Positions 3,201-41,388 of a stretch of 64,000 nucleotides of DNA are shown here, piece by piece. Made by a program: the position numbers and the translations under genes. The stretch spans positions 18,118,547 to 18,182,546 of the forward strand of contig NC_092686.1 in the NCBI RefSeq assembly GCF_964275005.1, in the 5' to 3' direction. The stretch comes from Diadema setosum (lineage: Eukaryota; Echinodermata; Echinoidea; Diadematoida; Diadematidae). The notes under the pieces were generated by a model. It had not been told where the DNA came from, searched no databases, and saw nothing but the letters and a program-made list of their open reading frames with translations. Position 1 is the first letter of the stretch; each line of letters opens with the position of its first letter.

Positions 3201-6200
3201 TATGCCAGCAAATTTGGATTTTATACAAGGTTCTAATGTACATGCTCATGACTGTAACTTGCTGGCTTTTTCTTTTGAAAGGTGAGCGCTGATTAGCTCT
3301 TTGCTGCCTCTCAATATCGATATTTTTGTAAGATTGACGTGATTACTTAAAGTGAGGTTAGGCCTGATGAGCACACAATGCTAACTCCCAGTTCACACTG
3401 TATGTCTTGGCAAGGACGAAGCAAAGGTTGACGTTAGGATCAAAGAGTTTTAGTGCTGAAATGTTTGTTTGTTTGTTTGTTTTTTGTTTTTGTTTTTATT
3501 GATTTCCATCTGAGAAGATGACCGGATAGCCCATATTCAGATGCAATAGCCGGTCTTCCATGGGGTCCTGTTGAATGTTAGGCGGGACCACTTTACCGGG
3601 TTAGACACCTGGCTTTTTGCGATTGATAAATGAAGCGGGATCTTTTACGTACATGAGTTGTGACTCTCTCAAACACGGTACTTTAATTTTATGTCCTATC
3701 CGAGGAACAAAGTGTTTGCCTCTTACTAGAGGGGACGGTATGATTACACACAACATTGTTCAGTGATACCCGGGAATCGAACCTGGGTCCTTTGGATCAT
3801 GAGGTAGACGCGCTTATATAGCCCTACCGACTGAGCTAGCTAACTCACCGCCAATGTATGTCTTTTTGAGCCATTTTAATATATTTCTCTGTGTATATAG
3901 CTTGACAGTGGTTCGGTAACTGGTATGAAGATAGGCCTGTTGCGCGAGGGGTTCAGAACTCCGGTGGCACAGACAGCCGTTAATTCCTTGGTCGAGGAGA
4001 CAGTCTTCCGTCTTAGAGGGATGGGAGTGGGAGTGCAAGTTCGAGAAGTCACTGTTCCTGTGCATGCTCACGGTAATTTTTCAGTCATAATTGTCATATT
4101 CACACCAGAATTTTCATTTTTCTTAAAAATGGCAAGATGTCAAAAGTGTGCTCAAACACTGCCTTCTTAATTTGATACCGTGACTGTTTTGCTGCTTAAT
4201 TTTCCTGTATTTATTCTAATTGCATGTTGTATATTTATTTTTGTTTGTTTGTTTGTTTGTTTGTTTGTTTTTTAGTTCACACCCACCGGATCGTTCCAAC
4301 ATCCCTGACACCCAATCATGTATATTGTGTGTAAAATACACCACAATCTAATGTTTCACCATGCGGCGCGATTCAGATTTTGAATAAAGCAGTACGTATA
4401 TGTTATGTATACGTTACATACCTTACACAATGGTCTTACACAAGGCATTTACACACACACATTATTATTCATTAATACTTATGTAATCTTGTACCCTAGT
4501 ATTACTTTGTTTGTCACATTACACGTTGTTAATTTAAAGTGGAATTGTGTTAACATTTTCCAGCACCCGGTATATGGAGCTGCATTGGTGAGGGGATTTA
4601 CGAAACCGTCATTCGTCATGGAGGCAAGTTTATATTTTACTTCAATTTACTCAAAAACGGACAACGTTGTTTTCGTCACTTATATCATGCAGGCATACAT
4701 CAAATTACTTCACCATGACTCTGCAAATACTAAATCAAGGGCCGTCCGTCGACCTCGATTATACGGCCCTCTCTTATCCGGACGCCTCTAAGCAGTGAAG
4801 ACTACCCCCCCCCCCCCCCCAAAAAAAAAGAAGTTATTTCAAACACTACAATTAAAACTCCTACAAAACTCACGCAATTCACCTATGATATTCCCTACAG
4901 AAACATGCGATGAATTTACAGTAAAATGCTTCAGTTGCATGATTACGATTTCAATTTGGCTATTAGCATGAATTACATACAATTCTGTTGCAGTGTGCAC
5001 GACCTACGTAGCTACCACTGGGTCGGCAGCTTACAAAATACATAAACATTGTTTCTCCCATATCAGGCCAAATCGCTTGTCCGGACGGGGTCGGACTGTT
5101 CGGGTCATTTAGTAAAGCTATAAAAGAGCTCCCCCCCCTCNNNNNNNNNNNNNNNNNNNNNNNNNNNNNNNNNNNNNNNNNNNNNNNNNNNNNNNNNNNN
5201 NNNNNNNNNNNNNNNNNNNNNNNNNNNNNNNNNNNNNNNNCACATCAAGCAATTTTGCACTGTAATGAAAACGAAATTTCTTATATTTAAAAAAAAATCC
5301 CGAAATACACTTTAAATTTCTCCAATGCACGCGGAAATTATATTTGAAACTTAATATACATATTTTAATGTGTTCTAAAGGGAAATCCAGAAAAAGCAGA
5401 CGCTTGTGAATATTGTGGGGTAGCCTAGGTCATCAGAAAAAAAAAACAACAACTAACAGTCTGTACACACATGCGCAACGGAGACTGTCTTAATGAAAGG
5501 GAAAGAAAGGAGAAATACAGGAAAGAGAAAATCTTCGACTCTTGGAAACAGTATTATCCAATGATTATCGAAAAATTTGCGTGGTTACATTTCCGTCGCG
5601 TGTTTTTCGTTTACGTAACTGGCTGTATTTTAGCAAAAGTACACGCGGCATTTACACATACATCATGAGAACTTGGCACGAACTGCGCAAGAATGCGTGT
5701 TTTTGTTTTGTTTTTTTGCTTCATTGTCGGAACACATTCAGACAAAAACTTCCGACTATTGTTGGATTTTGCCATTCGTGTCCTTTGCAAATCGTTCGCG
5801 TGCTCCGCGAGATCTCACTGAGCTACGAATGTTTGTATAGCGAATACTATAGGGAATGCAATCAAACTCGTAAACAATTCCAGTCAAAACTAGCAAACTA
5901 TTTTTATTATCGGAAACAGTTCTTGTTGTCGCAAAGAAATTTTCAGCACGCTACACTCGCAAACATTCGCTACTCAGTGAGATTGGTGGCTTGTATTGTG
6001 AGGGGTTTTTTTTTCTCTTCCTCCCCCCCCCCCCCCCCCCCCCCACCAAACCCTGCTGCGCCGCCCGCACGTGGCTCGCCCCTCAGTCTAACCTGGTACA
6101 TGTGATTTACGTTCTTCTCAGCTGGACATCAATGATACAGGGGAGTATTAGGGTTGAACTTGTATTCAGTTGACACAGTGTGCTCTATTTGTTGTTAAAT

Positions 6201-9200
6201 TTTGCCGATATCATATTATTTATGTGTTGTGACTGCAAAAGATTTAATCTTTTTTATTGTGAGTTTTATACTCATTGTATTTCTGTGCACCGGGATGGGC
6301 CGTTTTAAGAAATAAAATTCATTGTCATTGTCATTGTCATTGCCATTGTCATTCGACCCTTGGGAGTATTTTATTACAAAAGTAGTGTGTTTCTTCCTTC
6401 GTTTATTTATTATAGAATGAAAGAATGCTTCATGCGCTTCCATGTGTGAATGACGTATACGGGGAAAAAAACTTCGACATGTGCGATGGAAAAAAACATG
6501 TACACGGTAGGGCCTATTTACACAAGACAGTCTGGACTCGAAATTATCTTCGACATAGGCGAAATTCGACATGCAAAACTTCGACTTGTGAAAGATTATT
6601 TTAAAGAAATAAGTAAAGAGAAAATCGGGACTTTTCTGGAGCTTCGACTTGGCCGAGTTTTCGACTTGTGCGAGGTCGACTTAAGCGAGGTTGACTGTAA
6701 AAACATTTTTAAACGTTCATTAAAGACGAAGTCAACGTAGCGGACCTAATAAAAACGTTTTGTGGACGTCTATAAAGAACGAAGACGTAGCAGACATAAT
6801 AAAAACGTTTTGTAACGTCCATTAATGACTTTTTAAAACGTTTTCCAAAAAAACTGTGTTTTGCGGTAAATGCTAAGTACCAACTTTGACGTTGTATGTA
6901 CGTTTTATAAACGTCCACTTTATACGAAGACGTACGGAACCTAAAAAAAAAAAAGAAGAAAAAAAAAAGAAAAGCGTTTAAGAAACGTTCTGAAAACGTT
7001 ATGTGTTTGCTGGGATGGTACGTGTAAATATAGTTGTGGCCAAATGCAGTATGTGACTATACTGCTGAGTAAAGCTGTGTGGTTTTGTTTTCTTTACACA
7101 CCTTTAGTATGGGGGATAACATTCACTTGAGGTTCCTTTACAAAAGAAACCATACACCGACATAATCTCATCCTTCCCATATGGGTTGCATTGGCCCATG
7201 AATTTTATGCAAAATGCTTTGTGAGTCATTATAAGGGAGTTCACAGTTTAGTGCATTCCTCATTCTGACCTCTTTACCACAGATTTTCAAATAACATGGA
7301 AAGGACTTGTGATGGAGCATTCTTTGTACTAGGTGTTTCAAAAAACATTTCCCACTTTTGATCATTAATAGTTTAAAAACTATCCGTCCGATAGAACTGC
7401 CATTGATATGAGTAATAGCTGAATAGTGTACAATTTTGTTGGAGGTGATTTGAATGTGAAAGCATAAATCAGTTTCATTAAATCTATGATTGATTTTGAA
7501 GTAAGGTTTCAGATTTTGGTCAAATTTTAACGCTCTGTACAAAAATTGAACTTTGCACAGGAACCAATGATGTGTATGTGAGTGTGTGCTGACAATGGCC
7601 CTGAACAATGGACATGCCTGAATCACCGGGTGCTGTTCGTTATTCCGAAGGTTCGTTATTCCGAAGGCTCGTTATTCCGAAGGTTCGTTAATCCAAAAAT
7701 TGAAAAAGGGTTCGTTAATCCGAACATTTAATGTGGCGTTATTCCGAAGGTTCGTTATTCCAAAGATTCGTTAATCCGAAAATGGAATATTATGGTTCGC
7801 TATTCCGAAGGCTCGTTTATCCGAAAATGAAATAGGGTTCGTTATTCCGAAGGTTCGTTAATCCGAAAATGAAATAGGGTTCGTTGTTCCGAAGGTTCGT
7901 TGATCCAAAATGAAATAGGGTCCGTATAACGAACCTTCGGAATAACGAGCTTTGTGTCATTTTCGGATTAACGAACTTCGGAATAACGAACCTTATTTCA
8001 TTTTCGGATTGATGAACCTTCGGAATAACAAACCTTATCATATTTTCGGATTAACGAACCTTCGGAATAACGAATATTCGGAATAACGAACCGTCGGAAT
8101 AACGAACTGTAACCGAACCACCTGTTGACTAGGCCTCAGTCTCGCGCTCCCAGGCACATGAATGCTTAATCAATAATTCATGTGGATTGCCCTGGGCACT
8201 GCTAGTCTGAATTCATGCAACGTATAGGGTAAAATGCATGCACATGGAAAAAGTAAGCACAGTATAGTTTCCATGTGCTTGCAAACACCGCATTTCATTC
8301 CAGCTGACAATCATTTTCAAATTTTGCTTCACATATCACTGAATTTGGGATATAAATAATCATAAATGATCTAAAGTTCTTCATTTAATACAACTGTCTA
8401 CTAATAGTCTGACAAATTTGTCGCTTTTTCGATAAAAAGACATCATTTTTGGTAAAAGTTCAGCAGTATTTTTCATTGGGGCGATTTGTTTCACAGTAGA
8501 TTTATTTAAGGCTCCATATACACAAGTGTATACTCTAAGTGATTTTCTTTGATTCCTGTCACCATGTTTACGACAGAACAGAAGGTGTTCATTGTAATTT
8601 CGTTTTTCAGAAGTAGGGAGAGCACTGTCGCGACTCAGCGACAGTATCGGCAGGCGTTTGACTTTACACAGATACTGCCAGAGGCTGAATAAAGACTAGT
8701 TGTGATAGTGTAATTTCTCATGAATAATGAAGCATTCAAACCCTGGCCATTGTTCAGGACCATTGTCAGGGTGTTAACCACAAACTCCCATACACACCCA
8801 TTGACCCCTGTGCAAAGTGAAAGTTTTGTACAGAGGGTTGAAAATAGAGCAAAATCTGGAACCTAACTGTGGATTTCATGAAACTGATTTATGCTTTCAT
8901 ATCTAAACCACCTCCAACAAAATTGTACACTATTCAGTTATCACTCATACCAATGACAGTGTTATCTGATATATAGTTTTTGAATTATTAAGAATCAAAA
9001 GTGGGAAATGCTTTTTGAAACACCCAGTATAAGCATGCCATCTTTGTAATCAATGTAAATGGAATGTTTTTGTCAAACGTTGTCGATAAATTACTATCAC
9101 CTGTACGTTCTAAGAAGTGTAAAACACATAACTTACTATTTCAGATCCTCATTTGCCGGAGGATTCTTTTCGTTTCTAGGTCAATGGCAGATACACAAAT

Positions 9201-41366: not shown

Positions 41367-41388
41367 GTCGCTACTTCGAGTCGAGCAC

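Follow-up and report, generated by a model that had tools for sequence, protein, structure and literature searches.

An old partial tandem duplication of an amidase-transporter block in Diadema setosum, probably cut by an assembly gap

The window analyzed here, a stretch of 64,000 nucleotides from the echinoid Diadema setosum, contains two copies of a block that combines the 3' part of an amidase gene with a transporter gene on the opposite strand. The explanation that we consider likely is a partial tandem duplication of old date that left, on the right, a complete transporter and a dead 3' piece of the amidase, with an assembly gap interrupting the left copy. Under this scenario, an old tandem duplication in D. 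setosum would have copied the block from amidase intron 5 to a point upstream of an SLC16-like transporter. The right copy would have kept the complete transporter, and its amidase piece, devoid of 5' exons, would have decayed into a pseudogene, leaving a relic of exon 6 and lesions in exon 8. In the left copy, amidase exons 1-6, which are conserved, and the first two transporter exons remain; the others (exons 7-9 of the amidase and 3-7 of the transporter) would most likely be found in unassembled sequence for which the 100 N at 5141-5240 are a placeholder. A sequence-only reading of this locus had instead proposed a working amidase spliced from one copy into the other, each copy having retained a complementary part of the gene. 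Table 1 lists the features discussed below.

Table 1. Amidase, transporter and duplicated-block features of the window
Feature	Position	Strand	Remarks
Left amidase exon 1 in window	115..287	+	57/58 residues as D. antillarum P0001; earlier exons outside window
Left amidase exon 2	1205..1344	+	45/46 residues as P0001
Left amidase exon 3	1898..2098	+	67/67 residues as P0001
Left amidase exon 4	2660..2734	+	25/25 residues as P0001
Left amidase exon 5	3901..4072	+	44/57 residues as P0001; two extra residues
Left duplicate block	4119..5140	+	aligned with 22753-23854; last base adjoins N gap
Left amidase exon 6	4564..4623	+	20/20 residues as P0001; followed by GC donor GAG|GCAAGT
Assembly gap	5141..5240		100 N, only N run in window; probably placeholder for sequence of indefinite size
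Left duplicate block, transporter intron 2 to 5' flank	9616..15001	-	patchily collinear with 37138-41417
Left transporter exon 2	12823..13119	-	open; GT donor, AG acceptor
Left transporter exon 1	14776..14953	-	open; GT donor
Right duplicate block (end of amidase intron 5, relic exon 6, start of intron 6)	22753..23854	+	aligned with left block
Relic amidase exon 6	23259..23287	+	~29/60 bases remain; acceptor lost; donor TC vs left GC
Foldback (self-complementary) element	24098..24770		92.7%; between relic exon 6 and exon 7
Right amidase exon 7	24862..24962	+	28/34 residues as D. antillarum; two changes at positions that never vary among 11 close homologues
Right amidase exon 8, apparently dead	25222..25416	+	TAA directly after LLLM (ancestral frame); second TAA 25341-25343
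Right amidase exon 9 with stop codon	25831..26078	+	61/65 compared residues as D. antillarum
Right transporter	28049..41366	-	seven exons, 465 aa; complete map to NCBI monocarboxylate transporter 12-like, D. setosum (P0121)

Two copies of an amidase-transporter block

The duplication is real, and of an ordinary kind. Comparison of the window with itself reveals similarities of 74% between 4607-4977 and 23271-23633, 85% between 12695-13150 and 39972-40420, and 90% between 14761-14978 and 41173-41395. A more sensitive comparison adds left patches at 4425-4493, 9616-9702, 11897-11974, 12406-12627 and 13874-13975, with right counterparts in the same order; the pairs 9616-9702/37138-37233 and 11897-11974/39541-39617 are collinear patches of transporter intron 2. 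Furthermore, 4119-5140 aligns with 22753-23854 at 682 identical positions out of 935, with a score of 1278, where 100 block shuffles gave at most 273. This alignment is weak and rich in simple repeats before ~4425, and strong from 4602. The score and the collinear patches support the tandem duplication of the amidase 3' part and transporter, as initially claimed. The offset arithmetic then proposed (18.7 kb for the amidase, 27.3 kb for the transporter) was also correct, the measured offsets being ~18.66 kb and 26.4-27.6 kb, and the two comparisons together display the collinear similarity anticipated in a dot plot near 23.2 kb and at 9.6/37.2 kb.

Two comparisons past 4118 and one past 15001/41417 revealed no extension of the block, none of them scoring above 20 shuffles. 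As far as can be seen, the copied block would start in amidase intron 5 and end just upstream of the transporter. A match between 3461-3710 and 29779-30034 is not collinear; we rejected it as part of the block and take it as a dispersed repeat.

The right transporter is confirmed as complete, with seven exons on the minus strand at 28.0-41.4 kb. Its model is 100% identical to P0121 over 351 residues. The exon-2 frames of both copies match PF07690, a label also carried by P0121 itself; both the profile match and the complete protein place the right copy in the Major facilitator/SLC16-like family. Comparing the copies over exons 1-2 only, we obtained a Ks of 0.10, a Ka of 0.049 and a ratio of 0.49, but constraint on both copies is not demonstrated because the bootstrap ranges from 0.22 to 1.13. 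Six noncoding stretches that we chose and aligned, four of them transporter introns, give Jukes-Cantor (JC) distances of 0.20-0.39. Synonymous divergence between the transporter copies (12823-13119, 14776-14953) is thus below that of the intron stretches, which hints at gene conversion homogenizing the transporter exons, or at poorly aligned introns.

Several repeats were observed elsewhere in the window. Two head-to-tail copies of 1,372 bp (16581-17952 and 17954-19325) are 99.85% identical, and each has an inverted partial relative (83.7%) at 19542-20134; we regard the pair as either a very recent repeat duplication or an assembly duplicate. Long tandem arrays occupy 54781-56023 and 57303-59464, with 74/148-bp and 71-bp units, and a 265-bp array is found at 51091-51952. 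Within a transporter intron, the minus strand of 30816-31142 presents a weak reverse-transcriptase match (PF00078, E 1.3e-4, 22.2 bits vs a cut-off of 29.6).

The left amidase and the assembly gap

Exon mapping confirms that amidase exons 1-6 are on the left and exons 7-9 on the right. Identity to the D. antillarum amidase amounts to 98-100% in left exons 1-4 and 6 (214 of 216 residues in sum). In the exon 5 stretch, P0001 itself agrees poorly with four other homologues (39-51%), and no relic of exon 5 exceeds shuffles on the right. In a profile scan covering exons 1-3 and 9, the frame of each of exons 1, 2 and 3 scores above the Pfam cut-off of the amidase signature family (PF01425), and the exon 9 frame reaches 25.9 bits vs a cut-off of 27. 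We infer that the left amidase is alive, and since its exons 1-4 and 6 are so conserved, the gene probably has its own exons 7-9 inside the gap. Because relic exon 6 has TC at the site matching the GC donor of left exon 6 (4624-4625), the C of this donor, and perhaps the GC donor itself, may be older than the duplication.

Homology of the left copy to the right copy reaches base 5140, where a C-rich run ends and the Ns begin immediately after. From the point matching 5140 to the start of exon 7, the right copy extends for 1,008 bases, of which the foldback element makes up 673. Left homology thus runs into the gap ~1 kb before the expected exon 7, which leaves the left side of the proposed complementary retention unsupported. 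Past the gap, clear homology returns at 9616/37138. Right amidase exons 7-9 (24862-26078) and transporter exons 7-3 (28049-34270) are all located after the counterpart of 5140 and before that of 9616; the corresponding left interval, into which every exon missing on the left should fall, contains the sole N run of the window. The sequence-only reading, silent on this gap, had described the missing exons as lost. The interval that should hold them, however, has 100 N beginning exactly where the alignment ends, and what appeared as reciprocal loss is probably an assembly gap.

We apply to the window the statistics of its best-fitting assembly, the ERGA assembly of D. setosum. Its report (PMC13264686) mentions HiFi reads, Hifiasm, purge_dups and YaHS, along with 644 gaps in 912.7 Mb and a gap total printed as '66,200 kb'. 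We read this total as bases, considering that 644 gaps of ~100 bases nearly give that sum. On that reading, these statistics yield ~103 bases per gap and the 100-N run would therefore be a placeholder. From the same figures, we estimate a chance of ~0.3% that an unrelated gap falls in a given 4.5 kb. Both this low chance and the gap-bearing interval suggest that the missing exons are unassembled rather than lost. Another D. setosum assembly (GCA_033980235.1), with a 22-chromosome table, is on record in GigaByte (PMC11066563).

Alternatively, a true deletion may have removed exons 7-9 of the amidase and exons 3-7 of the transporter from the left copy, in which case the gap would be small and incidental and the amidase recently dead in D. 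setosum. We hold this to be unlikely, although several observations lean that way. No similarity between 5241-9600 and right 23.9-37.1 kb was detected, except for a shared repeat with 42-bp units and the stretch leading into the 9616 patch. Four local comparisons (30 shuffles each) set segments from within 5241-9700 and 10010-12400 against the right copy, and three scored no higher than the shuffle maximum; in the fourth, 8701-9700 aligned with 36177-37231 at 491 vs a maximum of 338, this stretch including the 9616 patch. Since most of 5241-9600 is without similarity to the right copy, which a deletion would also explain, the left copy may have been rearranged within this interval. The 42-bp-unit repeat at 7.6-8.1 kb recurs at 9.7-10.0 kb; we rejected it as block homology and take it as dispersed.

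A true deletion would also agree with the lesions of the right exons and with the protein searches: no D. setosum protein close to this amidase was found among the best 120 of 7971 and the best 120 of 7136 matches, nor any shorter D. setosum amidase model among the best 120 of 7136. The one D. setosum entry among the matches listed, P0023, is a paralogue (50% identical), and a D. setosum member may be hidden within the P0001 cluster. A missing close protein, however, fits a gap-cut gene and a dead gene alike. Against a deletion, the near-perfect agreement of left exons 1-4 and 6 with D. antillarum is unlike a gene long unconstrained, and the deletion edge would need to match the contig end to the base.

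The right amidase fragment

Exon 8 of the right fragment bears lesions. Its ancestral start, TTTTAG|TTG CTT CTC ATG (LLLM in D. antillarum), is immediately followed by TAA. Use of a later AG bypasses this first stop, but the in-frame TAA at 25341-25343 remains, at a site where D. antillarum has Glu, so that exon 8 is stopped in both candidate readings. We considered exon variants that span 25300-25400, follow an AG acceptor, end at a GT or GC donor and keep the phases needed; the sole open variant, 25289-25412, is in an unrelated frame. Skipping exon 8 leaves exon 9 out of frame.

Substitutions also affect residues that are invariant in the 11 close homologues: Gly to Val and Pro to Ser in exon 7, and Val to Glu in exon 9. 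These homologues are 11 of the 12 best matches (P0011 was left out) and comprise nine named echinoids plus P0002 and P0009, which lack an organism name. Among substitutions relative to D. antillarum, residues seen in none of 57 homologues account for six of 12 on the right but for one of 13 in the left exons (Fisher p 0.03), where the homologues are animal or probably animal sequences that we picked from 120 listed matches, and the count disregards the stop and two inserted residues. The amidase exons of the two sides do not differ significantly in whole identity (p 0.22) or at strictly invariant columns (p 0.064). Neither residue contrast includes the broken beginning of exon 8 or the final residues of exon 9. 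In the parts that were compared, right exons 8 and 9 share 93-94% of their residues with D. antillarum.

Right exons 7-9 appear to be dead. The fragment retains introns and carries frame lesions, as unprocessed pseudogenes do, and the assembled set of amidase exons does not keep an intact frame to the C-terminus, owing to the TAA in exon 8. How well these exons are preserved depends on the clock. By our own rough estimate, a Ks clock predicts ~16 amino-acid-changing substitutions in 145 neutral codons over half of the time since duplication. As right exons 7-9 display 12 substitutions and a stop, neutral decay fits. On the intron clock (JC 0.20-0.39), their preservation seems too good for a fragment that has been dead from the start.

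This preservation on the intron clock is the main remaining point in favor of a hybrid gene, in which left exons 1-6 would be spliced over 20.2 kb to right exons 7-9, past relic exon 6 and the opposite-strand partial transporter. Such a gene, as proposed in the sequence-only reading, appears very improbable to us. The exon 6/exon 7 junction at 4623/24862 is indeed in frame, with a GC donor and an AG acceptor, and relic exon 6 has decayed while the compared parts of exons 8-9 have stayed close to D. antillarum. However, right exons 7-9 carry the in-frame TAA at 25341 and a disrupted exon 8 start, which undermines both the splice across the join and complementary retention. The frame across the join does not stay open: the conceptual transcript stops in exon 8, no usable open form of this exon was found, skipping it shifts the frame, and a hybrid gene would require the stop to be either an uncommon allele or an error in the sequence. 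As sequenced, a 'surviving' trans-copy amidase is unsupported. We give equally little credence to the idea that right exons 7-9 served as the left amidase 3' end until very recently, or still do on some alleles, the stop at 25341 then being a young or polymorphic allele. If true, a gene split over two decayed duplicates would be joined by a 20-kb GC-AG intron enclosing a partial opposite-strand transporter.

A scaffolding error, placing the contig that ends at 5140 wrongly beside the one that starts at 5241 so that the amidase halves are not neighbours, is the least probable explanation of all: the join crosses Ns in an assembly whose gaps resemble scaffold joins, and 5241-6500 fails to continue the homology to 23855-27000, but what precedes the gap is the left counterpart of precisely the block that recurs, as the right copy, after the gap, and the left transporter copy is at its expected place.

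Relation to known systems

Where a contig ends inside a duplicated block, the result can mimic complementary loss of exons and splicing between copies. Confirmation of the gap would make the locus an ordinary partial tandem duplication that includes one pseudogene fragment; should reads show the gap to be empty, it would become a rare case of a gene rebuilt from two broken copies.

Left exons 1-6 resemble the echinoid amidase-like family (PF01425; D. antillarum P0001), with 77-100% identity per exon, but here the 3' half of the gene is unassembled on the left and broken on the right. The coincidence of missing exons with a gap recalls the false gene or exon losses described in PMC9516821, according to which false losses in earlier assemblies most often took the form of missing exons and of Ns within coding sequence. 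Those were vertebrate assemblies, whereas ours is a single, probably HiFi-based assembly. Finally, the right amidase piece resembles an unprocessed (duplicated) pseudogene fragment in its retained introns and exon order, absent 5' exons and frame lesions; it differs in that its neighbour, copied along with it in one block, is a complete and annotated gene.
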